Positions 20,501 through 39,670 of a stretch of 64,000 nucleotides of DNA are shown one piece after another; position 1 is the first letter of the stretch, and the number at the start of each line of letters is the position of its first letter. The notes under the pieces are model-generated. The model ran no database searches. It saw nothing but the letters and a program-made list of their open reading frames with translations, and was not told the origin of the DNA. Source of the DNA: Vibrio ponticus (GTDB taxonomy: Bacteria > Pseudomonadota > Gammaproteobacteria > Enterobacterales > Vibrionaceae); contig NZ_AP019658.1 of the NCBI RefSeq assembly GCF_009938225.1, positions 496,001-560,000 on the forward strand, given 5' to 3'. A program made the position numbers and the translations under genes.

Positions 20501-21087
20501 ATTTAGAAAACAGCCATGACACTATCGACCTTGTCATCACGGATTGCCATATGCCTAATATGGATGGTTATGAGTTGTGTCATACTATCAAGCAAAGTGA
20601 ATACCTTGCTCGCTTGCCCGTTGTTGGTTGTACGGCAGAGGACTCAATACTGGTGTTTGAAAAGGCGGAAAGTGTGGGTATGGATCATGTGCTGTACAAG
20701 CCATACAGCTTTGCCGAGCTTAGCGAGATGCTGAAACATTATCTCGAAGTTCGAACGCTTGATGTTACGAATGCTGAATCACTATTGATTACCGATTTGA
20801 CTTGGCTAGATGACCATCAGGGCGATGAAAAGCTCGAAATGATGCGCGTGGTCGTCGACTCATTTAAGCAAGAAAAAGCGCTGATTGAAGATGGGCAAGA
20901 TCTGCAACAAGTCATTCACCGCTTGAAAGGCTCAGCATCGTTGTTGCAACTTGAAGTGCTGACAAATTTAGCGATGGAATGGGAAGAGCTCACCCAGCAA
21001 GGTATCGACACAGGTACTCACTCACTTTTAGATGAGCTCTCGAGGTTGTTGTCAGTATTTGATACTTGGCTTGCACAACACGGTTAG
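17545..21087 (+). CDS. BvgS/EvgS-like hybrid sensor histidine kinase
   Basis: An 1180-residue membrane kinase. Order: signal peptide (1-19), two periplasmic SBP_bac_3 (Venus-flytrap) domains (about 30-240 and 265-480), one transmembrane helix (about 489-511, KIALVLLSVLSLFLLIVV), a PAS-like segment (about 535-640), HisKA with phospho-acceptor H662 in SHELRTP, HATPase (NNLLNNAVKFT, DTGCGM, GGTGLGM), receiver with phospho-acceptor D1000 in ITDCHMP, and C-terminal Hpt with H1125 in IHRLKGSA. This is the BvgS architecture and gives a full phosphorelay within one protein. The partner DNA-binding response regulator is not adjacent, and the CsgD-like protein nearby lacks a usual receiver. The stop codon overlaps the stop of the convergent manA gene. 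Confidence 0.9.
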   Translation: MQAVLVFLLFLLCSTPLFAQGTESNLPAEGKSKLVIGRQIDHYKYLWTPKRGGEENSTFQDLVERFASQHGYSPEYRFFANRDEMFSALYFGDIDMVLGFAKTDNAEKYFNYTKPIFNVRSVTWYQNSAKRKFAKESLRWGCVRGSLYCYMYEQQGFKNISAFDSKRVMMRSIARGEIDALYTDVITAEQYLSVRTPGEWQGDIDYLAELPPFPAAIATAKNNTELHQLVEKYVELSRASLKRNQRTLVDPIAEDMMLKALALHYGRSTIRYSFEENMRPFSYIENGNQVGYIHDFMAMLTRKSGIQFVYVSPEDKSPIEMLRDGDIDLLPGFAQDSNQDFIFTESFASVNWKCVESNFKSGRGEVAILDRTGRLVVGEAQKAFDVVPKIYRELDALLDDMKSGDVDYAYIPSYVVDYYAYNTEDELFSVLHSSQVKKLSIDLVLTFAPESRLLQGIMNQVVAQVSDNEIDMLHLKHHKVVVQYGYNKNKIALVLLSVLSLFLLIVVAFQIKASRLSKSLVKADEQAQQDQRRMQWLSDLLDRLPSMIAIYDSEGSIVLSNKAFNQHGMECMSFKKGHCLLKNQTYKMGNDDHLVCQCKFSKRYLRVIENEIGGMNDDGRYKMMVYDDYTALELQKDELKESNQKALKAIKSRDLFLATVSHELRTPISALIGLMELMSSKIENEDNVELLTNAQLSANRLRLLVNDILDISKIEANQLHLDTRNGNIYSELAPLLRTYESNAAMKHLNFELDWQATPYFKAKLDWLRVTQILNNLLNNAVKFTQHGSIKVTLKLLEDQLLVTVADTGCGMNDEQLGRIFTPFAQGDVSITRQYGGTGLGMTIVKSIVDLMSGDLVVQSELGKGTTIELSLPVSHTTVLEVLDCQAYSYNADILSWLQAWSIDVDASYPLVHNPAGGLNVYPDHILDAINQHEQAFEDTECHQSTFSGKVLIADDDPINRLLFSKQFAKLGVDIVLKHDGLEAYQYLENSHDTIDLVITDCHMPNMDGYELCHTIKQSEYLARLPVVGCTAEDSILVFEKAESVGMDHVLYKPYSFAELSEMLKHYLEVRTLDVTNAESLLITDLTWLDDHQGDEKLEMMRVVVDSFKQEKALIEDGQDLQQVIHRLKGSASLLQLEVLTNLAMEWEELTQQGIDTGTHSLLDELSRLLSVFDTWLAQHG

Positions 21088-22295
21088 GGGAGTGAGCAAT
21101 AAGCTCGGGCGAATCTACCACGGCAGCTAACTTGGTAGTGATTGCTTGCCGCGCAAATAAAGACCGCTTGACCTTTGTCGCACACAAGACGCTCACCGCT
21201 CGAATGCTCTAATACTATTGGTGCATCGAGCGGCAATAGGATCTCTGCGCTTGATGCATGTAGAGAGACGCTTGTGTTGTTTTGACGCTCTTGCTCTCCA
21301 TAGATGCTAAAGGAGAAATCATCGACAGGGACCCGATAATGCGCACCTTGATGATCGACTTTGGGTGCGAGTAGTAATGACTCTTGGGTCTGTGGTTCGA
21401 AGCGCACACAGGAAATGAGCTCTAAAACGTCAATATGCTTATTGGTCAATCCTGCTCTGAGTACGTTGTCAGAGTTTGCCATGATTTCTAATGCGGTACC
21501 TGAGATATAGGCGTGAGGAGTACAAGCGTTAAGGAACATCGCTTCGCCGGGATTAAGAGTGATGGTGTGAAGAAAAAGCGGTGAGAATAAACCAATATCG
21601 TTTGGATACTGAGTGGCCAATTGAGTCACAAGGTCAAAGGGCTGATTGTCGCTATGAGTTTGTGCGTAGTGGGTTAGATGCTGTATTACGCGTTGTTTTG
21701 CATTCCCTGATAATGCGAGAATGTCGGCAAATAATTGCTTTAAGCCGTCACTATTGAGTTGGACCTCATACTGTTGAACTAATGGGGTAATTTCAGCAAT
21801 GTTAAGTTCAGTCAGTAAGCTGTGAACCTCTCGGTGACAACGGAAGCCATTCATAGCTTGAAAAGGCGTTAATGCGTACACCAATTCAGGTTTATGATTA
21901 TTATCTTTGTAGTTTCGTTTTGGATCATCGATTGCAGTAATACCCAGTGATTGCTCTTGGTCGAATCCATTTTCAGCTTGTGATTTATTGGGATGAACTT
22001 GAACTGAAAGTGCTTTTTCCGCGCTTAAAACCTTAAATAGATACGGAAGCGAACTAAATCGTTGGACTGTCTTTTTACCTAAGGTGAATAGTGGGTTTTG
22101 CTCAATAAAGTCAGACAGTAAGATGTTACTACCATCATTTTTTATTGACGAGCAACCATTCGCATGAGCCCCCATCCAAATTTCAGCTTGTGGTTGTTGA
22201 GTGTCATTTGGAATATCAAATAATTGTTTGAATGATGAAGGACTACCCCAGTCATAATTTTGAATCTTACACTCTAGTGGATAAAAATAATTCAT
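21084..22295 (-). CDS. manA: Mannose-6-phosphate isomerase, type I
   Basis: A 403-residue cupin-type phosphomannose isomerase that interconverts fructose-6-P and mannose-6-P using zinc. Typical segments are YDWGSP near the start, SVQVHPNK (zinc-site Gln/His), HKPELVYAL (Glu) and the late NSDNVLRAGLTNKHIDV. The ATG at 22295 is preceded by AAGGAA; an upstream ATG at 22316 is less likely. It is last in the alginate-associated run, about 70 bp after the CsgD-like gene. AlgA in the same run already has isomerase activity of type II, so this is a second, unrelated enzyme for the same step, feeding the GDP-mannose pool. Its stop overlaps the stop of the convergent kinase gene by 3 bp. Confidence 0.9.
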   Translation of the reverse strand: MNYFYPLECKIQNYDWGSPSSFKQLFDIPNDTQQPQAEIWMGAHANGCSSIKNDGSNILLSDFIEQNPLFTLGKKTVQRFSSLPYLFKVLSAEKALSVQVHPNKSQAENGFDQEQSLGITAIDDPKRNYKDNNHKPELVYALTPFQAMNGFRCHREVHSLLTELNIAEITPLVQQYEVQLNSDGLKQLFADILALSGNAKQRVIQHLTHYAQTHSDNQPFDLVTQLATQYPNDIGLFSPLFLHTITLNPGEAMFLNACTPHAYISGTALEIMANSDNVLRAGLTNKHIDVLELISCVRFEPQTQESLLLAPKVDHQGAHYRVPVDDFSFSIYGEQERQNNTSVSLHASSAEILLPLDAPIVLEHSSGERLVCDKGQAVFICAASNHYQVSCRGRFARAYCSLP

Positions 22296-22368
22296 GTTTT
22301 TCCTTATGGCTTTCATTAATATTATGGTGTCGGGTAGTAGGGTAATTACTGGATTAAGCGCGTTTAAT

Positions 22369-23001
22369 TTAATCTAAGAGGTATTTATTTGCCCATTGCG
22401 TGGCTTGTGAACGATTTTTTACATTTATTTTCTTATATATATTGTAAATGTGCGTTTTGGCAGTCATCGGGCTAATGTCTAGTTTTGTCGCTATATCAAG
22501 ATTTGAAAGTCCGTTCACGATCATTTTTAAGATCTCTTTTTGTCGATGAGTCAGTTCGCCAACGGAAAGTCTTTTTCTTTCGTGGTAGCCTCTAAAGTGG
22601 TGGATAAGTTGAGTGCTTAGTTCACGGGATACCCATATTTCACCATTAATCATGCGCTTAATCCCATCAATTAGAAACTCTATTGAGTCATTAGGTTTAA
22701 ACGTGCCAACAACAGACGGCCATGAAAGAAATGCAGAATACTCTTTCTCCTCATCCACATTGAGTAGGATGATTAAGCACAAGGTGGGATTTTTTTCGAG
22801 CTTTTGTTTAAGAGTTTGGAGTTCACTTTCTTCGTTGACTAGATCTATGAGTACTAATGTTGGCTTAGTTTCATTAGTGATAAATTCAACATTATCAATT
22901 TTCTCTAAATTTAGTTCATCACAAATGACTCTTGTTAAAGCCGCACTTTGCAGAGATTCATTTCCGAAATAAAGTATTTTTTGTTTTGGTTCAAGATTCA
23001 T
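22369..23001 (-). CDS. CsgD/VpsT-like LuxR-family regulator
   Basis: A 210-residue regulator with a C-terminal LuxR/FixJ helix-turn-helix (LTHRQKEILKMIVNGLSNLDIATKLDISPMTAKTH, split here by reading it as two helices) and a degenerate receiver-like N-domain without the phospho-acceptor pocket. Just before the DNA-binding domain it has WVSR (123-126), in the place where VpsT carries its c-di-GMP-binding motif W[FLM][TS]R. VpsT/CsgD/BrpT-type proteins activate exopolysaccharide and matrix genes when c-di-GMP is high. It lies inside the alginate run, 94 bp after algC, and is the obvious candidate activator of the operon. Valine at the second motif position is a conservative change, but c-di-GMP binding is not proven. 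Confidence 0.87.
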   Translation of the reverse strand: MNLEPKQKILYFGNESLQSAALTRVICDELNLEKIDNVEFITNETKPTLVLIDLVNEESELQTLKQKLEKNPTLCLIILLNVDEEKEYSAFLSWPSVVGTFKPNDSIEFLIDGIKRMINGEIWVSRELSTQLIHHFRGYHERKRLSVGELTHRQKEILKMIVNGLSNLDIATKLDISPMTAKTHIYNIYKKINVKNRSQATQWANKYLLD

Positions 23002-23095: not shown

Positions 23096-24463
23096 TTAAT
23101 TAGCCAAAATCATTTCTTTAAGCATTTCAGTTTTTTCTCTCATTAGTTGAACATCATTTCGACTTTCGACATTGAGTCTAACGAGTGGCTCGGTATTTGA
23201 CATTCTTAAGTTAAACCTCCAAATACCTAAATCGACACTGATACCGTCGGTGTAGTCAATTTCAAAGCCGTCACGAGCAAAATGTTCAGCGATGAATTGG
23301 AGCACTTGTTTGGGTTGCTCTAACGTTAGATTGATTTCCCCTGATGCAGGATAAAGTTCCATACGTTCAGTGACTAAGCTAGACAGGCTGCATTTTTTTC
23401 GATTTAACAGGTTGAGAACGAGGATCCAAGGGATCATACCGCTATCACAGTAGTTGAAATCACGGAAGTAGTGATGCGCACTCATTTCACCACCATAAAT
23501 AGCGTCCTCTGCGCGCATCCGCTCCTTGATGAACGCATGACCAGTCTTTGATTGTATGGCATCACCACCATTTTTATCGACAACATCTACGGTATTCCAA
23601 GTTAACCTAGGGTCGTGGATGATCTTACTATTTGGATGTGAATTTAAGAAAGCCTCTGCCAATAGTCCAACAATATAATAGCCTTCAATAAACTCACCAT
23701 TTTCATCAAATAGGAAGCAGCGATCGAAATCACCATCCCAAGCAATACCCAAATCGGCGCTATGAGCAAGCACCGCTTCTGCGGTTGATGAACGATTTTC
23801 TTCAAGCAGTGGATTGGGAATGCCATTAGGGAATGTGCCATCCGGTGTGTAGTTTACTTTGATAAACTCGATTGGTGCCCCAAGTTGTGTCAGTGCATCT
23901 TCTATAGCATCCAATAGCGGCGCCGCAGCACCATTACCAGGGTTAATTACAACTTTCTTCGCTGACATACAACTATGGTCAAAATAGTTGACTAAGTATT
24001 TGGCGAAATCGGGTTTAATCTCCTTGAATTCAATATTCCCTTTGCGCTTCGGGTCTTTGAATATGCCAGCATAGACCAGTTGCTTGATACGATTTAACCC
24101 AGTATCACCACTAATTGGCTTACTATTGCGACCAACCAGTTTCATTCCATTGTAATCAATAGGATTGTGTGACGCGGTTACTTCGATTCCCCCACATGCA
24201 TCATAATAGGGTGTCGCAAAATAAACTTCCTCAGTCCCCGCAAGACCAAGGTCGATGACATCGGCACCACTATCGGTGAGCCCTGCCATTAACGCTGCCT
24301 TAAGCGCTTCAGTTGACTCACGTATATCGCCTCCCACCACCACTTTTTTGGCACTCAGGTGCTCGGCAAATGCGCGACCAATGCGGTAAGCGATCTCTTC
24401 GTTGAGGGTTTCCCCTAACTTGCCTCGAATATCGTAGGCTTTAAAACAGGTTACTTGTTCCAT
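23096..24463 (-). CDS. algC: Phosphomannomutase/phosphoglucomutase (AlgC type)
   Basis: A 455-residue alpha-D-phosphohexomutase converting mannose-6-P to mannose-1-P. The phosphoserine loop [13 protein letters not shown] is intact, the metal loop is visible as DGDFDRC, the sugar loop as GEMSAHHYF and the phosphate-binding loop as [12 protein letters not shown]. Length matches AlgC/ManB (about 460). The gene follows algA by 14 bp and precedes the CsgD-like gene. In Pseudomonas algC lies apart from the alg operon, so inclusion here makes the locus nearly self-sufficient for GDP-mannose. Confidence 0.92.
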
Positions 24464-24477
24464 GTTATTTGCCTACC

Positions 24478-25956
24478 TTATGAGTTTCTGACCATGTGTA
24501 AAAACGGAGCTGGTTGCATCAGTCCTGCATCATGCTTCTCGGTGGTCGAGCGACCATAGTTATCTTCGACACGCTCGATATCATCATCACCTAGATATGA
24601 ACCGGTTTGAATCTCGATAAGTTCGAGTGGTATTTGACCATTGTTGGTCAGTCGATGGTACGTGGCTGGTGGAATGTAAGTTGATTGGTTTTCTGTTATG
24701 ACAAAAGAGTTGTCATCCACAGTGACAATGGCGCTGCCTTTGACCACAATCCAGTGTTCTGCGCGATGATAATGGCGATGTAAAGAAAGAGAGTCTCCTG
24801 GATTAATGGTCAACTTAACCACTTTATAGCGACTGCCGTTATCGATACTGTCATTAAAGCCCCAAGGTCGATAGCTCTTAGTATGGTGAGAGCCTTCATT
24901 ACGGCTTTGATGTTTGAGAGACTCAACAACTTGTTTAATGTCTTGCACGTGGTCTTTATGTGACACCATCACCGCATCTTTGGTTTCTATGACAATTGTG
25001 TCTTTAAGCCCGTTAACATTGACTAAACGGTGGTTGGCTTTGACTAGGCAGTCTTGATTGCTTTCACCAATAACGTCCCCTTGATAGACATTACCTTTAT
25101 CATCTCGGATGTCATCTCGCTCTTCCCATAGGGCAGACCAACTGCCAACATCATTCCAGCCAGCGCTGAGCGGCACGATTACCGCATCTTGGGTATTCTC
25201 CATGACGGCATAATCAATTGAGATATCAGGGCAGCGACTAAAGACAGTTTTGTCAATACGGAAGAAGTCGAGATCTTTGTACTTAGAGTTGATAGCGGTA
25301 CGACAGTAATCCAATACATCAGGTGTGTGTTTTTTCAGTTCATCGAGTACGACGCTTGCTTTGAATAAAAACATGCCGCTGTTCCAGTAGTATTGACCCG
25401 ATTTCAAGTATTCGATGGCGGTATTAAGATCTGGTTTTTCCACGAAACGATCGACGGCGTAGGTATTATCAACCACACTTTCCCCTGACTTAACGTAACC
25501 ATAACCTGTTTCAGGACCGGTCGGCTCGATACCGAATAGCACCAACTTACCCGCTTGGGCTGCATCACATGCTTGGCTTAAGGCTTGGTGGAATTTTTGC
25601 TTATCTTTGATGACGTGATCAGCAGGAAGCACGAGCATCAGTTCATCACTGAGTCCTTGATGTTCAAGTTCGAGGGCTGCCAGGGCAACAGCTGGAGCGG
25701 TATTTCTGCCCATTGGCTCAAGTAGTACTGAACGAGGATGGCATTTGATTTCAGCCAGTTGATCTTTAACAATAAATCTGTGGTCTTCACTACAAATAAA
25801 AATTGGATTCTCATCGCTACCACTCGGGAGCCTTAAAACCGTGTCTTGAAGCAGCGAGAAATCGCTAACTAAACTAATAAATTGCTTTGGGAAATCCTTA
25901 CGTGAAAGAGGCCACATCCTAGAGCCACTGCCGCCTGACAGAATTACGGGAACCAT
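24478..25956 (-). CDS. algA: Mannose-1-P guanylyltransferase / mannose-6-P isomerase (AlgA)
   Basis: A 492-residue bifunctional enzyme. The N-terminal nucleotidyltransferase has the signature GGSGSRMWPLSR and FVEKPD and makes GDP-mannose from mannose-1-P and GTP. The C-terminal cupin (about 370-480; HRHYHRAEHWIVVKG and YIPPATYHRL) is the type II phosphomannose isomerase. Together they provide the first and third steps of GDP-mannuronate supply. It starts 2 bp after algL stops and is followed by algC. Confidence 0.93.
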   Translation of the reverse strand: MVPVILSGGSGSRMWPLSRKDFPKQFISLVSDFSLLQDTVLRLPSGSDENPIFICSEDHRFIVKDQLAEIKCHPRSVLLEPMGRNTAPAVALAALELEHQGLSDELMLVLPADHVIKDKQKFHQALSQACDAAQAGKLVLFGIEPTGPETGYGYVKSGESVVDNTYAVDRFVEKPDLNTAIEYLKSGQYYWNSGMFLFKASVVLDELKKHTPDVLDYCRTAINSKYKDLDFFRIDKTVFSRCPDISIDYAVMENTQDAVIVPLSAGWNDVGSWSALWEERDDIRDDKGNVYQGDVIGESNQDCLVKANHRLVNVNGLKDTIVIETKDAVMVSHKDHVQDIKQVVESLKHQSRNEGSHHTKSYRPWGFNDSIDNGSRYKVVKLTINPGDSLSLHRHYHRAEHWIVVKGSAIVTVDDNSFVITENQSTYIPPATYHRLTNNGQIPLELIEIQTGSYLGDDDIERVEDNYGRSTTEKHDAGLMQPAPFLHMVRNS

Positions 25957-25958: not shown

Positions 25959-27062
25959 TTATTCCTTATTTTGGTAATATGTTGAATGATAAAAAAGAAA
26001 ACCTAAATCTCCGCCTAAGCGTGTTGAGCGTAGATTGTCTGATAGGTTTATAACGTCATGAATTTGTCTCTCTTGCGCTGAAGAGTATGTAAGGTAGGGT
26101 GCGAGCCAAGCGCTACGACCATTTATTGTTATATTTGCATCAATCTGTTCGACACCAGTTTGATGTTCGAAAACGGGGTTACTCATTGCATGGTTGAAGA
26201 GATTCGTGGTTAATCGCTCAATCTGATGCCTATGAGCATCATAGACAGCGGGGCTGTTTTGTTTAATGAACAGTCCGAGCATCGCCAGTGGTTGCATTGC
26301 AAAATTATGATAGTTGGCAGCCCGTTGTTTCCTTTTGATTTCGTTAGGCAAAAAGCCATTGGCATCTATCTGTTTAGCTGCGTAAACAAAACCCGCTAGT
26401 GCCCAATGATAGAGTTCAGAGTCATTTAAAACGGCTGCGGAAGCCATTACAGCCCAAGCCGCCCAATAATCGTGATTATTGATCTGTGTGGGTTTGCGAT
26501 TTGAATAGTCCTCGACAACTTGCCACGCCAGTTTTGATAACCAACTTTTTATCTGTTCATCTTGCGGTGACGGAATTTGGGCTGCGTAATTGGTTCGTAC
26601 TTTCAGGTAGTTACTTGCGACGGTCGCTAGCGTCCATTTTTTGATGGCTTTGCCAACATAATTGACTTGTTCGCTTGAAGCAATCGAACTGGATTTCGCC
26701 CAATTTTCTAAGTTAGCTAAATAACAACTTAGATCGTTTTCTGCGGGTGATGCAATTAGCCTATCGGCTAGTTTAGTTGTATAAGAACTGAACTTATTTA
26801 TACCGAGAGTTTCTTGTCTATATTTTTTGTCTAAGCTGGCGACAACTTGGCTCTTGTTTGGATCATTTTTGCGATATTTACTATTAAATATCAATGTTCC
26901 TTGATAGGGCGGAATCATGATGCACGGCACTGGTTTCGGGCTCATCGGTGCCATTTGGATAATGTAGCCTGGCGGAACATCAACATGCACCACGCTCGCA
27001 TCAGTGCTGCAAGCAGTAACGAAAAAAGTCACAAGAGCCAATGTGCTGTGTCGCCAGGTCAT
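25959..27062 (-). CDS. algL: Alginate lyase AlgL (PL5), predicted lipoprotein
   Basis: A 367-residue protein of the polysaccharide lyase 5 family. Visible family residues are NSKYRKND (catalytic-site Lys, about K62), NNHDYWAAW (N196, H197) and RAANYHNFAMQPLAML (Arg and catalytic Tyr). In Pseudomonas AlgL is periplasmic and clears misrouted polymer during export. Here the N-terminus ends with VTAC, which fits a lipobox with Cys18, so the enzyme may be membrane-anchored rather than free. It starts 2 bp after algX and precedes algA. Confidence 0.9.
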   Translation of the reverse strand: MTWRHSTLALVTFFVTACSTDASVVHVDVPPGYIIQMAPMSPKPVPCIMIPPYQGTLIFNSKYRKNDPNKSQVVASLDKKYRQETLGINKFSSYTTKLADRLIASPAENDLSCYLANLENWAKSSSIASSEQVNYVGKAIKKWTLATVASNYLKVRTNYAAQIPSPQDEQIKSWLSKLAWQVVEDYSNRKPTQINNHDYWAAWAVMASAAVLNDSELYHWALAGFVYAAKQIDANGFLPNEIKRKQRAANYHNFAMQPLAMLGLFIKQNSPAVYDAHRHQIERLTTNLFNHAMSNPVFEHQTGVEQIDANITINGRSAWLAPYLTYSSAQERQIHDVINLSDNLRSTRLGGDLGFLFYHSTYYQNKE

Positions 27063-27064: not shown

Positions 27065-28423
27065 TTAGGCTCCCCTTGAGGTATCTAAGCAGACAGAACC
27101 CGAGATTTGGGTTATTGCAGACGATGTCGAATTGATATCAATTAAATCGACAGCAAGAATTTTTCCCAATTTGTCAGTTTGCTTCTCTGCCAGATCGAAG
27201 ACGAAGCGCCCATTTTTGTGTCGATTGCGCGTTGAGCTTAAGTAGACTTTTGTTTTGCGACCGGATGCGTGCCATATCAGCAATCTCAGCGACTTAGTGT
27301 CTGCTACTCCAGTATCTAGATCAATGACGAGTTGAGATGGATAGTAATTGAGCAGGCTTGGTGCAAAAATCAGTTCTTTCTTTTGCTTCCCTTCCAACGT
27401 TGAGTTGAATGTCGTTAGCTTAGGTTTGTTTTGGCAACCATTATCCGCCATTGGGAGCATGTGTTGTAAACGTTCAGGGCTAGTAGGGTCGTAGTGAGAT
27501 AGTAACTCCCAAATGATGATTCTGTGGGTATCACTACCGTCATCATCTGTTTGTAGAAATTGCAACCAAGCGCCATACTCAGCCCCCCCACTGACTGCAA
27601 AGTTCGCAACATCTCTTTCAAGTGCTTCTTTTAGGAAACCTTCAAAATTGTAAGCTAAGCCATTCGAATAACTTGTACCAATAAGGTAAATCTGGGGCTC
27701 TGCGGTTGCGAATAGATCAACTTCTTCGTCTGGTACTGTTTCATAACGTGTCGTTGTCTCATTAACAAACGAGTAACCACAAATGCTCTTGAGTACAGTA
27801 TTGAACGTTGAGCTTGAAAGTTGGTAGTCCCCGGTCTCACGTGTTTCATATTTGCTTTGAGACTTAGGAATGTGCTGTATTAGATTATGTTCCTCGAGAT
27901 AATTGGCAATGACATTAGCGGCATGCATCGCGCCTTCAGGTCGCCAGTGGATATCACGATGGAAATAATAGTTAGGCTCTACAGAGTCCATATCCTGAGA
28001 AAGGTCAGGAGCATGAATGCCTTCCTGTTTATACAGGTTTAATATCGCATGATATTGATCTCGAAGATCTTGTTTTGATGAATACTCACCATTGAACCAG
28101 CGATTTTTTTCCAAGGTCCTCGGTGGTGTATGAGCAATGACAATGGTTGCATTTAAACGTTGCTCTACGGTATCAATAAAGCGTTTAAGTTGTTTGATAC
28201 TTTGGCGGTCAATTCGTTTTGATAACTCTCGTTGACCACCAGCGATCCAGTTTCCTGAGTCGAGTACTAAGGGAAACATGTTTCTAGTGTACTCAGTATT
28301 GTAGTTGTCTTTATCCGCAGCGGCGTCGCAGAGTCCTCTCGCTACTTCAACATCGTAGGTTGGATTGGCGGCGGCTTTAAAGCTGACCACTAGTAAAAAA
28401 ATGAACATGTAAAACGTTTTCAT
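27065..28423 (-). CDS. algX: Alginate O-acetyltransferase AlgX
   Basis: A 452-residue periplasmic protein with a signal peptide (FYMFIFLLVVSFKAAA). The SGNH-like domain has D157 and H159 in RDIHWRPEG and the nucleophile S251 in IGTSYSNG, spaced as in Pseudomonas AlgX. The C-terminal ~110 residues should be the carbohydrate-binding module (LVIDLDTG, LRLLIWHASG, VYLSSTRNR), and paired Cys residues are present. It puts acetyl groups on mannuronate residues and is part of the trans-envelope complex. The ATG at 28423 follows GAGTGG; a GTG at 28432 is the alternative. It starts 2 bp after algF. Confidence 0.9.
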   Translation of the reverse strand: MKTFYMFIFLLVVSFKAAANPTYDVEVARGLCDAAADKDNYNTEYTRNMFPLVLDSGNWIAGGQRELSKRIDRQSIKQLKRFIDTVEQRLNATIVIAHTPPRTLEKNRWFNGEYSSKQDLRDQYHAILNLYKQEGIHAPDLSQDMDSVEPNYYFHRDIHWRPEGAMHAANVIANYLEEHNLIQHIPKSQSKYETRETGDYQLSSSTFNTVLKSICGYSFVNETTTRYETVPDEEVDLFATAEPQIYLIGTSYSNGLAYNFEGFLKEALERDVANFAVSGGAEYGAWLQFLQTDDDGSDTHRIIIWELLSHYDPTSPERLQHMLPMADNGCQNKPKLTTFNSTLEGKQKKELIFAPSLLNYYPSQLVIDLDTGVADTKSLRLLIWHASGRKTKVYLSSTRNRHKNGRFVFDLAEKQTDKLGKILAVDLIDINSTSSAITQISGSVCLDTSRGA

Positions 28424-28425
28424 GA

Positions 28426-29040
28426 TTACCACTCAGAATCAGCACTGATAGCTTTGGTACCCCAAGCTGTTTGAAATGCGACAATGTCACTGGCATAGCC
28501 GCGTTTTAGTGATACGCGGTTAATCTCTGCAACCGGCGTTTGGGCACTGTCTTTGATTAGGAAATTTAGCTTCATCGGATTGACTTCCCGTTCGATGGCT
28601 TGGTGTTTTCCAAGGTTCTCAAACACAGGTTTATTGCTTTGGGTTGTGAGGGATAGAGATTGATCGGAAATATTAATAAAGGCGATTCGCGCCGCTTTTT
28701 TACTGGCATTTTTAGCTTGTTCTACAAAACGAAGCTCATTGTTGAGAATGAAGAAGGTGAACTTTCGATTACTAGGGATAGTGAGTGTTTTTTCAATGCC
28801 ACCAACGGTGAGTAAGTAACTACCTGCATCAAGCGCGATATAAGGAGAAGCCGAATAGGCTGGGGTTGGTTTGGTTTTTTTGCCGTTAACTTTCAGGGTC
28901 TGACTATCGTTATCAGTATTGACAAGACGAACAAAACTCGAGTCCTTACTTGGTTTAGGATCATAAAGGGCAGCATCATCCGCTGATACTTGGAAGGCGA
29001 AGAATAAGCTCAACGTAAAAAGAGCGTTGATGAATTTCAT
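28426..29040 (-). CDS. algF: Alginate O-acetylation protein AlgF
   Basis: A 204-residue periplasmic protein with a signal peptide (MKFINALFTLSLFFAFQVSA). It has the two beta-rich halves of AlgF (FVRLVNTDNDSQTLKVNG and RIAFINISDQSLSLTT). AlgF is needed for acetylation with AlgI, AlgJ and AlgX, probably as an adaptor. Its ATG overlaps the TGA of algJ in ATGA, so translation is coupled. The open frame extends upstream, but the start at 29040 is set by the signal peptide and the overlap. Confidence 0.9.
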   Translation of the reverse strand: MKFINALFTLSLFFAFQVSADDAALYDPKPSKDSSFVRLVNTDNDSQTLKVNGKKTKPTPAYSASPYIALDAGSYLLTVGGIEKTLTIPSNRKFTFFILNNELRFVEQAKNASKKAARIAFINISDQSLSLTTQSNKPVFENLGKHQAIEREVNPMKLNFLIKDSAQTPVAEINRVSLKRGYASDIVAFQTAWGTKAISADSEW

Positions 29041-30097: not shown

Positions 30098-31501
30098 TCA
30101 GAACTGGAAATAGAGGAATGGCGAGTAAGCTGAAGCGATAAGCTTGCTCACGGATAATGCAAACAAACCTAATACTAATGCGGGCTTCATAAGATTCGGC
30201 ATACTCATTGAAATGTGATTAAAACGGGTCGCTAAGTTTTCAATCAATATGTAACCGATACCGACGGCTAAAAAGCAGGTTGCACGATAAGAGGGGTTAA
30301 GTTGCACGGCTAGATCATCGATGGCTGAAAAATCGAACATAACCACGTAGTATTCGAATGCCTGCTGCACATCATTAGCACGAAAGGCTACCCAGCCTAT
30401 AATGACGATTAACATGGTTAGACTAAAACGAACCAACTTAAGCTTTTCCCCTTTTGACCAACCCGTTACTCTTTCTAGTGCGAGGATCGAGCCATGTAGC
30501 GTCCCCCAAAGAATGAATGTCCAGTTAGCGCCATGCCAAAGTCCTCCTAGTAACATAGTGAGAAGAAGGTTGCGATAAGTCAGCAGGTTACTGCCTCGGC
30601 TTCCGCCAAGTGGAATGTAGAGATAATCTCTTAACCATGTCGAAAGGCTGATGTGCCAGCGGCGCCAAAATTCGGTGATACTTAAACTGACATAGGGGCG
30701 GTTAAAGTTCTGAATAAAGCGAAACCCCATCATTAGCCCTAAGCCACATGCCATATCGCTGTAACCGGAAAAATCAAAGTAGAGCTGAATAGAGTAGGCT
30801 ATCGCTCCTAGCCAGGCATCGGCAAATGAAGGTTCGGAGAGCAAGAAGCTTTCATCGGCAATCGCTGCCACAGAGTCAGCTATCAATACTTTCTTGATGA
30901 AGCCAATCATAAATAGCAGCACGCCCTCACCGAAAAGCGCAAAGCTATGTGTGCGCGAGGCAAATTGTTCTGCGACGTCTTTATAACGTAGCACCGGTCC
31001 AGCGATAAGCTGTGGGAATAGGGCGATGAATGCCGCAAAGTCGATTAGCCGAGTGGTGACTGGAACATCTTTTCTATATACGTCTACAACATAGCTTATT
31101 GCTTGGAAAATATAGAACGAAATTCCGATGGGTAGAATGATATTCGCCAGTGGAAGAGGAGATGCGCCTAGCGATGTGAGTACGCTGTTGAGGCTTTCAA
31201 CGCCGAAGTTGGCATACTTAAAATAAGCCAATGTTGATAAGTTACCCGCAATAGCCAGTGTTAACCACTGCTTCGCTTTTTTCCTATTCGTCCCAATATG
31301 TTGTGACACTTTGAGCGCTAAGCAGTAGTTCCATAGTGTCACGGCAATGAATAAGGCTAGAAAATCAACTCGCCACCAAGCATAAAAACTGTAGCTACCT
31401 ACCAAGATCACCCAGGACTTGAGTCGAAAAGGAACAACATAGTAGATCGCCAAGAATATAGGTAAAAACAGAAATAGAAATACAGACGAAGAAAAGACCA
31501 T
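30098..31501 (-). CDS. algI: MBOAT O-acyltransferase AlgI
   Basis: A 467-residue polytopic inner-membrane protein of the MBOAT family. The conserved active-site His is H323 in LLGGLWHGANW, and RPYVSLSITEFWRRWHISLSTWLRDYLYIPLGG (two adjoining blocks) is the diagnostic membrane-bound acyltransferase region. It moves acetyl groups from a cytoplasmic donor to the periplasmic acetyltransferases. It lies between algG and algJ at 3-5 bp spacing. Confidence 0.92.
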   Translation of the reverse strand: MVFSSSVFLFLFLPIFLAIYYVVPFRLKSWVILVGSYSFYAWWRVDFLALFIAVTLWNYCLALKVSQHIGTNRKKAKQWLTLAIAGNLSTLAYFKYANFGVESLNSVLTSLGASPLPLANIILPIGISFYIFQAISYVVDVYRKDVPVTTRLIDFAAFIALFPQLIAGPVLRYKDVAEQFASRTHSFALFGEGVLLFMIGFIKKVLIADSVAAIADESFLLSEPSFADAWLGAIAYSIQLYFDFSGYSDMACGLGLMMGFRFIQNFNRPYVSLSITEFWRRWHISLSTWLRDYLYIPLGGSRGSNLLTYRNLLLTMLLGGLWHGANWTFILWGTLHGSILALERVTGWSKGEKLKLVRFSLTMLIVIIGWVAFRANDVQQAFEYYVVMFDFSAIDDLAVQLNPSYRATCFLAVGIGYILIENLATRFNHISMSMPNLMKPALVLGLFALSVSKLIASAYSPFLYFQF

Positions 31502-31504: not shown

Positions 31505-33007
31505 TCAATCCTTATTTTTTTGAATTTGCAATGCGGTGGCGTCATTGACGTTTTGTGCAAAGACTTCAAAAAATGGTTTTAGGTCACCGAGAAAGTTCGC
31601 ATTGTAACTATTGCCATTTTCGCCGAAGGAGATGTTGCCAAGCGTGGTAAACTCGAAGTCACTAACGTTTATTGCCGCGCTTTTGTTGGCAACTATGCTT
31701 CCACCAGATGCGGTGAATGACACTTTGGCAGTGAAAGGATCCAGGGTTAGGTCACGGTGAGTGTGCTCAGACAGGTTATTGGTATGCCCATAAATTCCAG
31801 CCCCCCCATTGGCAATTAACTTATTGTCGTACAAAGAGATATTTTGACTATTGCGGATATTAATGCCGTGCTCTTGATTGTTATAGACAAGATTATTGAT
31901 GACAAAATTGTTGTCGCTTTCTTGTAGGGTAATGCCATCACCACCGTTGTCGAATGCGCGATTATTCACGATAAGGTTGTTTACTGACGAGCGGTCCAGC
32001 ATTATGCCCGAGCGTTTGTTATTGAAGCTGATGTTGTCAAAGATAAAGCTATTATTCACTTCGCGAGAGATAATGATGCCATGCTTTTGCAGCGTACCAT
32101 GTGTGATATTTTTTGCGATGATAAGTCGCTCTGAGTAGTCATGGGGGTCAATACCATAGACTACATTGGCGATATATTCGTTGCCCAAAATGACGACGTC
32201 TTCCGCCTTGTAACAGTAAAATCCATAGTAAACATCAATGAAATCGTTATTGACTAGATAACCAGTTGCCTTGGTATTACTGATCCAAGGTCTCTGCTTG
32301 AGTTCTTGCTCGCTGAGATATTGTGTCGTGAGGGATATGCCATAGGCTTTAGAACTGAAATAGCCCAAGCTTTCAAAACTGGAATTGTAGAAGAAGGTTT
32401 TTGAGCCATTCCACACGCTATAAAATGCACGGTAGTCGCTTTTATTTCCGGACCAATATGAAGGGCTATTGGTGGATTCGCGCCATGAGTTGATTGTTGC
32501 ATCAAGAACAAAAAACTCTCCGCCACCGACTAAGAAGGTGCGTCGTTCTTCTGACAGCCTAAGTTCTTCTCCGTCATCTATAAGGATTGCAGCATCACCT
32601 CTTACCAAAATAGGGAATCGAGCAAGGTAGGTGTTTGGCTTGCTTTCATCTGGGATCAGTGCATGCGGAAATTTCGCTGCAATATCTTCTAAGCTGGCTA
32701 AGCCATTTTCAATTACAAGGATTTGCGGTACCGCTCCTTGATCTTGAGCTTGCTGAGTCATATCGGTAATTAATTGAAAACGCCTTAATAACCCTTGCTC
32801 GGGTAATCGTTGTAATGTGATTTCTGCTTGATGCGACCATGAAGACAATTGTTCATGGAAAAAAGCTTGGTTGTAGCGGGAAATATCTGGCAATTCCGGT
32901 GAAACCTTAGGAGGTGTGTCAACTGGTTGGCTTGAATAGGGGGTTTGTTGCCCCGCGATCACGCAAAAGGGTAGTAAGCTTGAGAGTAAGAGTGTCGATT
33001 TTAACAT
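31505..33007 (-). CDS. algG: Mannuronan C5-epimerase AlgG
   Basis: A 500-residue periplasmic enzyme with a signal peptide (LLLSSLLPFCVIAG). The right-handed parallel beta-helix is visible as repeated short strands with Asn ladders (NNFVINNLVYNNQEHGI). The catalytic motif DPHD is at 287-290 in GIDPHDYSE. It converts D-mannuronate to L-guluronate in the polymer and protects it during export. The motif is strong evidence that the product is alginate-like rather than another mannose-derived polymer. It starts 8 bp after algE. Confidence 0.93.
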   Translation of the reverse strand: MLKSTLLLSSLLPFCVIAGQQTPYSSQPVDTPPKVSPELPDISRYNQAFFHEQLSSWSHQAEITLQRLPEQGLLRRFQLITDMTQQAQDQGAVPQILVIENGLASLEDIAAKFPHALIPDESKPNTYLARFPILVRGDAAILIDDGEELRLSEERRTFLVGGGEFFVLDATINSWRESTNSPSYWSGNKSDYRAFYSVWNGSKTFFYNSSFESLGYFSSKAYGISLTTQYLSEQELKQRPWISNTKATGYLVNNDFIDVYYGFYCYKAEDVVILGNEYIANVVYGIDPHDYSERLIIAKNITHGTLQKHGIIISREVNNSFIFDNISFNNKRSGIMLDRSSVNNLIVNNRAFDNGGDGITLQESDNNFVINNLVYNNQEHGINIRNSQNISLYDNKLIANGGAGIYGHTNNLSEHTHRDLTLDPFTAKVSFTASGGSIVANKSAAINVSDFEFTTLGNISFGENGNSYNANFLGDLKPFFEVFAQNVNDATALQIQKNKD

Positions 33008-33015: not shown

Positions 33016-34350
33016 CTACAACTTGACTGTGATATCGAAACGCAGACGAGTTTCGTCTTGAAAATGCTTAAGAGCATCATCTGTCACGAAATGAGAGGCA
33101 CGAATTTGCATCACACTGCTAAGAGAGGTACCGAGTAAGTTATCACTGCGATAAGACGCTTCTATATCAAAGCCTGTGCCAAGTGTTTTTTGTCTATTAT
33201 TAATAAGCAGTCGGTGCTGTCGACGAGATATAGGTGCGGCTCTATCTGCCTTTTGATAGCTTGAAATGGCACCAGTGATTGACCAGTCACGGTCAAAAGC
33301 GTAAGAAGCGAATATGGACCCGGTGACTAAGTTAGACAGATCTGGATCAAAGGCGTAGTTAAACTGGTAGAGTGAGTTACGGTTACCTGCATACTTGCCC
33401 TTATTTGAGGCTAGAGCAGTTTGAATAAAAGTACTTTCTGCATTTTTTCCGCCCTCACTATAAGCGAAGGTTCCACCTAAATAGAAAGGTGCTGATGATA
33501 TTTGCGTTCGAACTCCACCCAGAAATGCGTTGGCGGAAATGGAGCTCTGGCGAAGAGTCTGACCATTAAAGTCGAAAAACTGACCGTTACCAAGTAGCTG
33601 AATTGCTTGTAAATTATAGGCAAAGGTACTAGTAGGATCATCCTTGGCTAGCCAGTTATGACTTAAACCTGCACCTAACCACCACAATTCGCCTTCCAGT
33701 GCCGAAGAATACGCGCTAGATACTTTGTCTTCATCGATGTCTTTGTACTGCGTCGTTACGAGACCTTTTAAGCTCCAGTGATGGTAGGGCATCCAGTCGC
33801 TTTCGATTTCAGCCCAGCCATAGAGTTTCGACTTTTCTTCCTCTTTTAGGGAAGTGCTGGAATTGAACGTGGAGAACTTTTGTCCAAAACCAAGCTGCCA
33901 ATCGACGCGGGTGCTGCTTACTTGCCATGAGAGTGATTCAATTTCATCATCAAGCCAGTAAGGGGAGAGTCGATGTCGCTTAAGCCCAATAAATAGGCTA
34001 TTTTGCTGAGATGGTTGTGCAAAATTGTATTGCCACCAAAGCTGATTCAACTTGAATACCAAGTGATCGTTATCTTCAGTATTTGCGGTTGCATTACTAC
34101 CATCGAATGCGTTGTAGTTAACCGCGTCATTGGTAAGTAGGGCTCTTGCGTCAGCATAGATGAACTGATTGCTACTTAACGCGCGGCTATACTTAGCGAT
34201 GTATTCTGCACTGATGACATCGCGGTCTTTTTCCATTGAATTGGTGTTAGTAGACTGAGTTTCCACTGTTGTCTTAATCGATTGAACGAAATCAGCGTTC
34301 GCTTGCATCGACAAACCCGCGACTATGATTGCGATTACCGTCAGTCTCAT
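33016..34350 (-). CDS. algE: Alginate export porin AlgE
   Basis: A 444-residue outer-membrane protein with a signal peptide (IAIIVAGLSMQANA). The sequence alternates amphipathic strands and ends RLRFDITVKL, consistent with a large porin. It fits the AlgE family (SKLYGWAEIESDWMPY, DIEASYRSDNLLGTSL), which exports anionic polymer through an arginine-lined 18-strand pore. It overlaps the end of algK by 4 bp (ATGA). Length is a little below Pseudomonas AlgE (490). Confidence 0.88.
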   Translation of the reverse strand: MRLTVIAIIVAGLSMQANADFVQSIKTTVETQSTNTNSMEKDRDVISAEYIAKYSRALSSNQFIYADARALLTNDAVNYNAFDGSNATANTEDNDHLVFKLNQLWWQYNFAQPSQQNSLFIGLKRHRLSPYWLDDEIESLSWQVSSTRVDWQLGFGQKFSTFNSSTSLKEEEKSKLYGWAEIESDWMPYHHWSLKGLVTTQYKDIDEDKVSSAYSSALEGELWWLGAGLSHNWLAKDDPTSTFAYNLQAIQLLGNGQFFDFNGQTLRQSSISANAFLGGVRTQISSAPFYLGGTFAYSEGGKNAESTFIQTALASNKGKYAGNRNSLYQFNYAFDPDLSNLVTGSIFASYAFDRDWSITGAISSYQKADRAAPISRRQHRLLINNRQKTLGTGFDIEASYRSDNLLGTSLSSVMQIRASHFVTDDALKHFQDETRLRFDITVKL

Positions 34351-35678
34351 GGTGTATTGTCCTTTAAATTGTTGCTTTTAATGGCATTCCTAGCCATCAT
34401 CTCTTGTTTGATTAGTTGTTTTACTCGCGCGTCTTGACGAACGTCTTCACTGGAAGTAGCGGGCTGTTCGTTGGCAGAAAGTTGGTTGTATACGCTAAGG
34501 AAAGCATGTGAATAAGCCGAATTAGGAATGACGCCATTTCCCTGTTCGAACACTTTAGATAGTGTTAAGTAAGCTTTGTCTTGCTTGTTTCTCGCGGCTT
34601 TGAGTAACCAATTAACGCCAGTTTGGAGATGCTGATCGCCTAGTTTTCCAGAGATATACGTTTCGCCTAGTAACCGCTGGGCTTCTGGAATTTCCGATGC
34701 TTGATGCCAATGCTCTACGGCGTTGCGGTAGTTTTGTTGAACACCTTTACCTTTGAGATATGCGTTACCAATTAAGACGTGCGCAGGAGTGTAACCTTGA
34801 GCCGCGAGTACCTTTGCTTGAGTAATTATTTCACCCGCTCGAAGCGAGTGCTTCGGTAAATATCGGTACTCGGTGCTCATCGCCTGGAACCATAATTGAG
34901 GCTTTTCTGCGCCGACGATTTGTGCCAGTGAAACATACAGTGTCGCGTTGGGTCCTCCGATTCGGCGACTTTTAGCCAAGTGAGCGATTGCCGCGATATC
35001 GTCACTGCTCACATCACCTCGAGAATGCGCTTGTTCAAGTTGACTGATGAGGTCGAGTTTCTGTTGATCATTTTGATTCGATGTCTGATTTATAACGGCG
35101 AGTTTGTAGCAATTTATCTGATCGTTTCGAGGGGCGCTTTGACAGTATTGTTTGAGCTCCTTGTTGATATTCTCAATAGGTGCAAAGTCACTGGCGTATT
35201 TTAGTGCCAGAGAGTGGCGACCTGAGATGATGAGCTTATTTAACTCAGGTGCAAGTTCATTGACGTCAAAGCTGGTGTAGTAACGCTTGTAAAAGGACAC
35301 CAAAAGGGGGAGGGCATCGTGAGAAGTGTTCTGGCGATGCCAAATTTTGCTATACAGTTCACCAGCCTCTTCTTCTGTGATACGTGTCATTTCAAGTTTG
35401 AGTAGCCCTAACTCGGCTTTTGGATAAATGTCTAACAGCGAACGATAAAGCTCAGTCGCATTTTCCGGCGAATATGAACCTTTTTTAGGGTCGGCGTACA
35501 TAGCCGCTAAGGCAAGCTTTGCTTCCCAGTAACCTTCATTTGCCAAACGGTTGAGGGTCATTTCAGCTTCATTACTACTTCCCTGTTTATCGAGTTGTTT
35601 AGCGTTATTGACATCGTCAATAACGCATCCAGAAAGTAAGCCTAAAATCAGTAAAGAGACTGGTAGACGCAAAGACAT
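34347..35678 (-). CDS. algK: Outer-membrane lipoprotein AlgK with TPR/Sel1 repeats
   Basis: A 443-residue lipoprotein: the lipobox is LLSGC with Cys18. The mature protein is built of helical Sel1/TPR-like repeats (ANEGYWEAKLALAAMYADPKKG, LIGNAYLKGKGVQQNYRNA, LGETYISGKLG). AlgK helps AlgE localise and connects the pore to the inner-membrane synthase complex. It is 2 bp downstream of alg44 and overlaps algE. Sequence is diverged from Pseudomonas AlgK, and order is the main support for the exact name. Confidence 0.86.
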   Translation of the reverse strand: MSLRLPVSLLILGLLSGCVIDDVNNAKQLDKQGSSNEAEMTLNRLANEGYWEAKLALAAMYADPKKGSYSPENATELYRSLLDIYPKAELGLLKLEMTRITEEEAGELYSKIWHRQNTSHDALPLLVSFYKRYYTSFDVNELAPELNKLIISGRHSLALKYASDFAPIENINKELKQYCQSAPRNDQINCYKLAVINQTSNQNDQQKLDLISQLEQAHSRGDVSSDDIAAIAHLAKSRRIGGPNATLYVSLAQIVGAEKPQLWFQAMSTEYRYLPKHSLRAGEIITQAKVLAAQGYTPAHVLIGNAYLKGKGVQQNYRNAVEHWHQASEIPEAQRLLGETYISGKLGDQHLQTGVNWLLKAARNKQDKAYLTLSKVFEQGNGVIPNSAYSHAFLSVYNQLSANEQPATSSEDVRQDARVKQLIKQEMMARNAIKSNNLKDNTP

Positions 35679-36879: not shown

Positions 36880-38352
36880 TTAGACAAGCGTGACGACGAT
36901 GGCTAAAAACAAGCTAACAGCTGAAAAAGTGGCAGCTCGGGTTGACCATTTGTTAAATCGCCCCTGAAAAGAGGTATCGACTTGAGCTAAAGTGGTTTTC
37001 TGTCTTGTCCAAGATTGGCGATTAAGTCTAAAAACGACATAGATCTTCACCAATGAGCCAAATATCTGATTGAAATAAAGCATTGCTGGATAGCTTGGTC
37101 CAATCTTGTGCCCGGAGCTGATAAGCAGCAGCGTGATGAAAGTTCGGGTAATCGAAATCCAAAGTAGATAGACGACCAAATAACCCACATGGTATTTGAA
37201 GCCGGCATAAATCGCGGCGGTCAGCCCTAATATACTGGTCCACATTGAAATGCGTTGGTCCCACACTACGTAGTAGGTAAACCAACCTAGTCGATTCGCC
37301 CCTAAAGAGGTGGCACGAGTATTTTGTCTTAAATTATTGCCATACCAGCGGAACATCAGTTGTTTAGCTGACTTGATAAAGCTCTTGTTGGGCGGGTGTT
37401 CGACTGTTTCGATAATCGCATCAGCGACATAGAAGGTATCCCAACCTTGCTGCATCATGCTAAACCAACTCGATTTGTCGTCGCCGGTCAGAAATTTGAA
37501 GGTACCTAAACGCCAATGCTTTAAGTGGTCATTCTCGACATCATCAATAAAGTGATGAGAGGTTACGACGCTGGCTCTAAACATTGACATGCGCCCAGTC
37601 ATAGTGAGAACGCGTTTAGATAACGCCATGGAACACATTGAAATATGTCGCTGTGCAAAACGTAGTTTGTGCCATTGGCTCATCCAGTATGAGCCTTCTA
37701 CTTCACACACTTCGTTGGTCGTGAGTGCACCGACGTTTGGATATAGCGAGAAATAGCCAATAGATTTATCAACGCAGCCTGGTTGAAGAATGGTGTCTCC
37801 ATCCACGACGGCGACGAGCGCTGTTTCATCGGGGATATCACGCGATATGGCACGAAAACCGTGAGCCAAACCATCGCGTTTACCGGTGCCTGGAATGCGC
37901 ACTAAGCGAAGTGAAACACGCTCTTGAGGAGGCGACAGCTCTTCCCATAGAGCGGTCATGATTTGCTCATCTGATTGCTCTACGATTGACGCCACTACAG
38001 TTGTTGAGTATTTAGAATCAATCGCTTCCTCAATGATTGATTTATATACTTTAGCGGTTGTAAGGGCGTCAATACGAAAGCTTGTCACCATCAAATAGAT
38101 ATGTGATGGCGGGCTCTGTTCAATTGCTTGAGCCGCTTTTTTTCGTTGGCGAGGGAAAACAATGAACAAAAATATCCATCCACGAATAAAATGAATGAAG
38201 CCAATGCTGTAACGCCAAATACCAATCGCACCGATAATGAACAGAAAATCATGATGTTCAGAGTCAAATACAGACGTAGGCATTAGGCTGGCTAAGCCTA
38301 ATATAAAGCAAGCGAGAAATAGCCAGCCGGTTATGTCTTTGAAAACCCTCAT
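36880..38352 (-). CDS. alg8: Alginate polymerase Alg8 (GT2 glycosyltransferase)
   Basis: A 490-residue membrane glycosyltransferase matching Alg8 (494). It transfers mannuronate from GDP-mannuronate and threads the polymer through the inner membrane. Motifs are VVDGDTI (DxD at 184-186), TGDDKSSW and QLMFRW (331-336), the QxxRW-type acceptor motif. Hydrophobic helices lie at both ends ([25 protein letters not shown]). It is 7 bp from algD and 47 bp from alg44. Confidence 0.92.
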
Positions 38353-38359
38353 ATTGAAA

Positions 38360-39670
38360 TTACCAACAGATACCTTGTTTGTTATCTTCTGATTGGTTTG
38401 CGGTTAGACCGTGTAAATCAATCACTTTGGTGGTTGCTGGTAAGTCTTGAAGGATAGACTGGTAGCTTTCATCGCCATTACAAACAAGAACTAATTCAGC
38501 ACTTTGAATGTTTTCGTCAGGTGTATCGACCAATAATGACGAAATATGCGGAATGTGGTTGTTGATATACTCTTTGTTTGAGCCATGAACCGATGCGTAC
38601 TTAACATTGCGGTCAAGAATCGAGAGGTCGTAGCCTTTACCGATGAGCTTCTCGGCCAAAATAACAAACGGACTCTCACGCAGATCATCTGTGCCAGCTT
38701 TAAAGCTTAGCCCCAACATCGCAACTTTCTTCACGCCTGCATCTTTCACCATAGTGAATGCGCGTTCGATGTGCGCGTCATTACTGTTCATGATTGCAGA
38801 AATCACCGGTGTTGATAGATCGAGTTGATTGGCTCGGTAACTTAGTGCGCGAACGTCTTTTGGTAGGCAAGAACCACCAAATGCAAAACCAGGTTTCATG
38901 TAGTAACTGGATAGGTTAAGTTTTTTGTCCTCGCAGACCACGTTCATGACTTTGCGTCCATCAACGTTGACTGATTTAGCAATGCTGCCGATTTCATTAG
39001 CAAAGCTTACTTTGAGTGCGTGCCATACGTTACAGCTGTACTTGATCATTTCGGCAACGGCGATCTCTTCGCAAATAAAAGGAGCGTCTAAATCACTATA
39101 TAGCTGTTGTAATTGTTCACCTGTTTTCTCTTCGAGGACACCAACGACAGTCATAGGTGGGTTGTCATAGTCATAGATCGCCGTGCTTTCACGTAGGAAT
39201 TCAGGGTTGACGCCGACACCAAAGTCTTTTCCTGCCGTTTTGCCAGAGTACTTTTCTAAAGTAGGAATAACGATTTCAGCAACGGTGCCCGGCAGAACGG
39301 TACTGCGGATGATAACCGTATGGCGACTGCTCTTCTCTTTGATAACAGAGCCAATTTCTTTACAAACCTCTCGGATATAGTCGGTATTCAGGTTGCCATT
39401 TTTTAAGCTAGGTGTTGGAACACAAATCATTGAAATATCGCTGTTTAACACCGCGTATTGGTAGTCAGAAGTGGCGGTAATAAATTGATTCTGAACGCCT
39501 TCTGTTAGTAATTCATCAAGACCATTTTCGACAATTGGTGATTTTCCACTGCCAATCATAGATACTTTTTCTTTCGAAATATCTACACCAATAATGTTGT
39601 TTCCACGTTTTGCTAGACAAGCTGTACAAACAGCGCCTACGTAGCCCATACCAAAGATACTGATTTCCAT
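38360..39670 (-). CDS. algD: GDP-mannose 6-dehydrogenase AlgD
   Basis: A 436-residue NAD-dependent enzyme oxidising GDP-mannose to GDP-mannuronate, the committed step of alginate synthesis. The NAD-binding motif is [14 protein letters not shown] at the start. The catalytic thiol is C268 in [11 protein letters not shown], the same position number as in Pseudomonas AlgD. Length equals the family (436). It is the first gene of the run, and the long intergenic region upstream should hold the main promoter. Confidence 0.95.

Follow-up and report, generated by a model that had tools for sequence, protein, structure and literature searches.

The window analysed here is a stretch of 64,000 bases from a Vibrio genome (positions 496001-560000 of contig C2), whose minus strand carries a putative alginate (alg) operon. 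This is a run of 15 open genes read from 39670 to 21084 in the order algD-8-44-K-E-G-I-J-F-X-L-A-C, followed by a VpsT/CsgD-type regulator and manA, with gaps of no more than 94 bp or small overlaps throughout. Contig C2 (1,533,265 bases) is one of three contigs in a genome of 4.80 Mb and is probably the second chromosome, and the AlgG protein of the window is nearest to that of V. ponticus (92%). The initial annotation had placed a full set of thirteen alg genes at 21084..39670; the frames there are open and match the appropriate families and structures, making 15 genes with the regulator and manA, and these matches rule out chance or misread frames. The genes, with their principal matches, are:

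38360..39670, minus strand: algD, GDP-mannose 6-dehydrogenase (436 residues, C268); structure 1mfz matched end to end, 4.7e-180
36880..38352, minus strand: alg8, mannuronan synthase of family GT2 (490 residues, DGD at 184-186); 65% identity to P0159
35681..36832, minus strand: alg44, PilZ receptor for cyclic di-GMP (c-di-GMP) with HlyD-like co-polymerase; PilZ against 4rt0, 9e-16; Pfam PilZ and HlyD_3 above cut-off
34347..35678, minus strand: algK, TPR/Sel1 lipoprotein; 3e4b, 3.9e-24; NF038194, 1e-35, below cut-off
33016..34350, minus strand: algE, outer-membrane alginate porin; 4afk, 3e-18
31505..33007, minus strand: algG, mannuronan C5-epimerase (DPHD at 287-290); 4nk6, 4.3e-100
30098..31501, minus strand: algI, MBOAT acyltransferase (H323); Pfam MBOAT, 5.4e-31; 65% identity to the algI product of genome G407 (apparently Echinimonas agarilytica)
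29037..30092, minus strand: algJ, periplasmic O-acetyltransferase (D185/H187/S276); 4o8v, 4.8e-49
28426..29106, minus strand: algF, with a likelier start at 29040; Pfam AlgF, 5.5e-21
27065..28432, minus strand: algX, O-acetyltransferase (D160/H162/S254); 4knc, 1.1e-47
25959..27062, minus strand: algL, mannuronate lyase (PF05426); 4ozv, 8.5e-63
24478..25956, minus strand: algA, bifunctional phosphomannose isomerase (PMI)/GDP-mannose pyrophosphorylase; TIGR01479, above cut-off
23096..24463, minus strand: algC, phosphomannomutase; NF011943, 1.5e-200, below cut-off
22369..23001, minus strand: VpsT/CsgD-type LuxR regulator (motif W123-V-S-R126); VpsT 3kln, 1.8e-25; VpsT-like_REC above cut-off
21084..22316, minus strand: manA, type I mannose-6-phosphate isomerase; TIGR00218, above cut-off

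As listed, algF opens with TTG, and an ATG at 29040 that precedes a signal-like stretch is the likelier true start. Pfam and NCBIfam models name AlgF, ALGX (twice), alginate lyase, AlgG, AlgK, MBOAT, GMP_PMI, phosphomannomutase and PMI among the products, and further assign PilZ with HlyD, GT2 and UDPG/GDP-mannose dehydrogenase. The best solved structure is the alginate namesake for AlgD, AlgG, AlgL, AlgX, AlgJ, AlgK, AlgE (residues 72-413) and Alg44, and most of these structures we take to be of Pseudomonas origin. Alg8 had no match among solved structures; P0159, to which it is 65% identical, is the named mannuronan synthase of P. aeruginosa. The MBOAT protein AlgI is encoded at the expected place in the operon. 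The residues that the initial annotation had listed as catalytic, a role that we likewise assume for them, are all present: C268 in AlgD, D184-G-D186 in Alg8, D287-PHD in AlgG, H323 in AlgI, D185/H187 with S276 in AlgJ, D160/H162 with S254 in AlgX and N195-NHDYW in AlgL. Those of AlgD, AlgG, AlgL, AlgJ and AlgX align with the solved enzymes and the DGD of Alg8 with that of P. aeruginosa, while H323 of AlgI was placed by motif only. In Alg44, the PilZ domain (RRHAR at 16-20, NISASG at 40-45) can be aligned with those of solved Alg44 structures.

For every step between mannose-6-phosphate and export there is a gene, with the motifs expected of it, and all frames are open, hence we are highly confident that this is a complete and functional operon for alginate biosynthesis and export in a Vibrio, with the identity of the polymer and its regulation being what we infer from sequence. 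Comparison of alg8 with the corresponding gene of V. fluminensis A621 (locus L002, taken to be genome G050) gave a nonsynonymous divergence (dN) of 0.021 and a synonymous divergence (dS) of 1.26, therefore alg8 is under purifying selection. Several results weigh against the operon being complete and functional. AlgE had no match among the Pfam and NCBIfam family models, and NCBIfam cut-offs were not reached by AlgG (NF038177, 1.3e-121, 407 bits versus 700), AlgK (NF038194, 123 bits versus 700), AlgL (256 bits versus 429, and 254 versus 366) or AlgC (667 bits versus 801). Furthermore, a promoter scan found no site upstream of algD, and sigma-70-like sites showed no surplus across 21000-40400 (30, versus 37.7 in shuffles). 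Cut-offs were reached by AlgA (695 versus 373 bits) and ManA (277 versus 116 bits). AlgC, AlgG, AlgK and AlgL are therefore diverged members of their families, and AlgG, AlgK and AlgL are not claimed to be the same equivalogs as the NCBIfam models.

AlgX (60%), AlgL (63%) and AlgK (65%) are among the most diverged parts of the operon even relative to V. fluminensis, and the C-terminal module of AlgX lies slightly below its Pfam cut-off (25.2 versus 26.6 bits). This would fit an operon whose product is a uronan related to but distinct from alginate, or a polymer without acetyl groups such as polymannuronate, with AlgG and the acetylation proteins having drifted. We consider such a product very improbable however, given that the motif and aligned core of AlgG are conserved, the D-x-H and serine residues are kept in both AlgJ and AlgX, and Alg8 remains so similar to the P. 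aeruginosa enzyme. The initial annotation had also allowed for AlgG and AlgL belonging to another uronan family, but a solved poly(beta-D-mannuronate) C5-epimerase was matched by AlgG at 4e-100 and a solved alginate lyase by AlgL at 8.5e-63.

In P. aeruginosa, the alginate proteins form one trans-envelope machine that is switched on by c-di-GMP at Alg44. By homology to that system, ManA/AlgA, AlgC, AlgA and AlgD would produce GDP-mannuronate, which Alg8 and Alg44 would polymerise once Alg44 binds c-di-GMP. AlgG would then epimerise part of the polymer and AlgI/J/F/X would acetylate it, with AlgL trimming the polymer or clearing stray polymer and AlgK/AlgE serving in export. AlgL may be a membrane-anchored lipoprotein, because its N-terminus has a lipobox-like VTAC (VSAC in V. 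fluminensis); the AlgL of G407 has no such cysteine within its first 30 residues.

The V. fluminensis locus has the same 15-gene order, and the shared block extends beyond the operon to an SDR gene, a hybrid kinase, a membrane protein and a NUDIX gene. The features beside the operon are:

16612..17409, plus strand: SDR-family oxidoreductase, left end of the block common to V. fluminensis
17545..21087, plus strand: hybrid sensor kinase (SBP_bac_3, HisKA, HATPase, receiver and Hpt), its end overlapping the end of manA; within the diverged block
39671..40295, minus strand: region upstream of algD, holding ATTTCGTATTACCT at 39769-39756
40296..40979, plus strand: predicted membrane protein with no Pfam family, divergent from algD; 53% identity in V. 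fluminensis
41286..41684, plus strand: NUDIX protein, right end of the shared block

The block, bounded by the SDR gene (16612) and the NUDIX gene (41684), comprises 19 genes which show 56–85% DNA identity to V. fluminensis, with dS of 1.26-2.50 in eight genes and beyond the reach of the method in 11; the Alg8 protein is 97% identical, yet the dS of its gene is 1.26. To the left, approximately 12 kb of DNA is collinear with V. fluminensis over 28 kb, with insertions in the window between, and the ten shared genes of this flank show 86–98% DNA identity (the outermost being cut by the edge of the fetched V. fluminensis stretch). Their dS is 0.07-0.30 in seven genes and 0.74, 0.85 and 1.01 in three, the last of which adjoins the block. 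The divergence of the block is much older than that of most of its surroundings. Given this difference in dS between the block and seven of the ten flank genes, the block has probably been swapped by recombination or gained separately at one place, and it appears exchangeable at that one place on contig C2.

High dS could also arise from fast local evolution of one inherited operon, and the same gene order in both species and the same place, as judged by the left flank, are in keeping with this, as is the left flank nearest the block, where within roughly 18 kb three shared genes out of five have raised values (the other two are at 0.28 and 0.30). Fast evolution is improbable however, as most of the left-flank genes have low dS whereas all 19 genes of the block, including alg8 with its near-identical protein, are at 1.26-2.50 or beyond reach. 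On the right side, matches beyond the block amount to only about 156 bases in approximately 30 kb of V. fluminensis. Three genomes without AlgG (G105, G101 and G003) conserve an MFS gene and at least three right-flank neighbours, and a clean empty site is not shown by their stretches, in which no left-flank gene lies beside these neighbours; the contig of G137 was too short for this comparison.

Foreign base composition was not supported for the thirteen alg genes, which resemble the flanks (GC content 0.43-0.45, GC at third codon positions 0.39-0.48), the regulator being lower (0.36 and 0.32). A plasmid origin was likewise unsupported, the AlgG relatives in the plasmid collection being nine Rhizobium large-plasmid records at 33–38% identity, and so was a phage origin, with no AlgG relative among viral contigs in a search for close relatives only. 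In V. fluminensis, the hybrid kinase at 17545-21087 is retained along with the block (78%). The stretch at 12408-16497, which separates the block from the collinear left flank, has genes for an Ig-like/F5-F8 surface protein, a PAP2 phosphatase and a small outer-membrane barrel, with no V. fluminensis match there. Insertions relative to V. fluminensis are also present at -9120 to -1763 (L023) and -108 to 7207, left of the block, some of them with low-GC genes (0.32-0.35); this part of the replicon is variable.

The region separating algD from the divergent gene at 40296 is for the most part unlike that of V. fluminensis. The 14-base ATTTCGTATTACCT is kept there at a similar distance and occurs once in the genome, but is only suggestive, as 3 of 500 plain (not dinucleotide) shuffles also reached a 14-base match. 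A second shared sequence, the 11-base TTTATAATACC, was within chance (at least 11 bases in 100 of 500 shuffles), and a sigma-E-like GAACTT picked out by eye was discounted for lack of conservation in V. fluminensis. Terminator-like sites in 21000-40400 showed no surplus (18 versus 17.3 expected).

A regulator had been listed in the operon by the initial annotation without its kind; the gene is present, and its VpsT/CsgD type is the most unusual part of the operon. VpsT is the best solved match, and both the VpsT-like receiver PF21155 (33.0 bits versus 27) and GerE (71.1 versus 23.5) exceed their cut-offs, while that of the CsgD equivalog was not reached (155.8 bits versus 250). Three further relatives in the same genome are only 25–34% identical, hence the regulator is a separate paralogue. 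A homologue search of 5.8 billion proteins, which relies on shared five-residue words and misses distant relatives, scored 284 candidates, nine of them at E <=0.001, and six of these nine (the window's own included) are at least 55% identical.

The published c-di-GMP motif of VpsT is W[F/L/M][T/S]R; binding of c-di-GMP requires R134, and dimerisation requires I141 (excerpts of PMC6237807, PMC3359988). All six close homologues have W[V/I]SR, and the WVSR of the window regulator fits the published set at positions 1, 3 and 4. The place of I141 is also occupied by isoleucine in all six (I133 in the window regulator, by alignment). The regulator is therefore a likely candidate for c-di-GMP binding, with W[V/I]SR as the binding motif, and would activate the algD promoter, so that c-di-GMP would gate transcription through the regulator as well as polymerisation through Alg44. 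Since it lies within the operon, it would also feed back on its own expression. Alginate here is probably under vibrio-like control, as the operon holds its own VpsT-type biofilm switch.

Homologues of the regulator with organism names come from V. kasasachensis, Vibrio sp. 404 and Enterovibrio norvegicus, and their longest contigs (47820, 52262 and 59302 bases) equal those of the AlgG matches from the same organisms, hence the regulator probably lies beside alg genes in these three relatives as well. A number of points count against a conserved c-di-GMP-responsive switch. At position 2 the motif has V/I, which the published F/L/M does not include, the window regulator has D where VpsT has K120, which we presume to be relevant, and the seventh aligned homologue (P0247, 36% identity) has WVPR, with proline at position 3 as in QstR. 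Co-location in the named relatives comes from equal longest contigs and not from reading those contigs, and the G407 operon is without the regulator, which is therefore not needed for function as such.

QstR and BrpT are VpsT homologues that are independent of c-di-GMP and have proline at motif position 3 (excerpts of PMC6237807). The in-operon regulator may be like them, responding to a different signal, for which the hybrid kinase nearby would be a possible source. The V/I at position 2, the proline of P0247, the presence of the kinase within the same block and the invariance of D53 in the seven aligned homologues all fit such a regulator, but the six close homologues keep S at position 3, R at position 4 and I at the I141 place, and we regard c-di-GMP independence as rather unlikely. 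The kinase beside manA may contribute a signal, with only its place and shared divergence linking it to the operon.

With slightly less than even confidence, we therefore propose the following for one lineage of Vibrionaceae. Alginate synthesis may have been rewired from Pseudomonas-type control to a dedicated VpsT-type c-di-GMP regulator encoded in the operon itself, so that c-di-GMP would lock the system twice, at transcription and at Alg44, and operon and switch may pass from species to species as a single exchangeable island whose chromosomal place is fixed.

Operons of this kind are rare in the genus. AlgG (E <=1e-20) was detected in 4 of 227 genus genomes, the same four being the only ones among 329 of the family, and in 4 of 394 genomes of the order sample (its own genome and three from other families); with one genome per species, this survey misses strain-level carriage. 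In the protein database, AlgG proteins are named for V. ponticus, V. kasasachensis, Vibrio sp. 404 and Enterovibrio norvegicus FF-162. We built one tree for Alg8 (34 rows) and one for AlgG (33 rows) from the fetched loci and from matches chosen out of 120 listed per search. The window-type clade received support of 100/100 in both, and contains three rows for Alg8, all of them Vibrio, and eight for AlgG, of which six are Vibrio/Enterovibrio. Two further Vibrio genomes, G068 and G069, group instead with G452, apparently a Moritella (100/99 for Alg8, 100/100 for AlgG), and this group joins G407 (98/96 and 87/83). Their loci (L007:8536-19060; L009) carry D-8-44-K-G-X-L, algA-algC, a 790-residue beta-helix/CBM96 protein and a PL7 lyase; AlgX is kept, algI/J/F are absent from the fetched 31.5 kb, and algE is missing between K and G. 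The G452 locus has the same gene set, but with algE.

The presence of two separate alg groups suggests more than one entry of alginate synthesis into Vibrio. Against separate entry, a group test on the vibrio and Pseudomonas rows only was compatible with one origin, the trees are midpoint-rooted, and six AlgG rows are long-branched, with P0007 flagged near the window clade. An old presence of alg genes in the genus followed by many losses is also compatible with our trees. Among the relatives of Alg8, P0124 (69% identity) carries an Escherichia coli label, on a contig of 28 kb, and may come from a mislabelled assembly.

To our knowledge, vibrios are met mainly as alginate consumers, and Vibrio matrix biology has centred on Vibrio polysaccharide (VPS) and related polymers. 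The initial annotation similarly described vibrios as mostly alginate degraders. Lyases of PF08787, which we take to be PL7, gave no match in first controls, and the profile was then run across the genus, with matches in 86 of 227 genomes (83 over the cut-off). G068 and G069 had one match each, in agreement with the lyase gene located in their alg loci, and G050 was not among the listed matches. In the genome of the window, profile searches found no lyases of PF08787 and none of PF14592, presumably PL6, whose control matched in 1 of 14 genomes. AlgL was the only PF05426 match in this genome, PL17 being probed through PF05426 alone. The description as degraders thus holds for part of the genus but not, by the families tested, for this genome. 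A vibrio probably able to make acetylated alginate, in which PF08787/PF14592 lyases were not found, revises the degrader picture for a few species. The operon also offers marine alginate enzymes, and a natural test of one polymer machine under the biofilm switch of another genus.

Among the titles and starts of abstracts listed for the open-licence literature, we found no report of a Vibrio alginate biosynthesis operon, which is no proof of absence as subscription papers lay outside this search. The operon is a diverged member of a known alginate kind, rare in Vibrio and with a new control arrangement. The Pseudomonas alginate operon starts D-8-44-K-E-G. The present operon shares this start, its functions and its conserved motifs with those of Pseudomonas and Azotobacter, but differs in having algI-J-F before X-L and in the addition of algC, the VpsT-type regulator and manA. 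In P. aeruginosa, algC lies outside the alginate operon (PMC10641220, in excerpt). A survey of 1733 genomes describes algIJF rearrangement within Pseudomonas, and its main text has no occurrence of the word Vibrio (PMC7112194).

That the order departs from Pseudomonas and includes algC, a regulator and manA had been pointed out by the initial annotation and was found here, although it is not unique. The operon of G407 (L016/L017) has the order D-8-44-K-E-G-I-J-F-X-L-A-C-manA as here, hence neither the order nor algC and manA are particular to this window; it differs in having no regulator between algC and manA, and its proteins are 20–69% identical. I-J-F also precedes X-L in G404 (A-C-D-8-44-K-E-G-I-J-F-X-L), whose locus (L019/L020) has two algL-like genes in a row. 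The VpsT of V. cholerae likewise combines a receiver-like domain with a LuxR helix-turn-helix, a W-x-[T/S]-R motif and an isoleucine at the dimer position; our regulator differs in that motif position 2 is V/I and that it is encoded inside an alginate operon.

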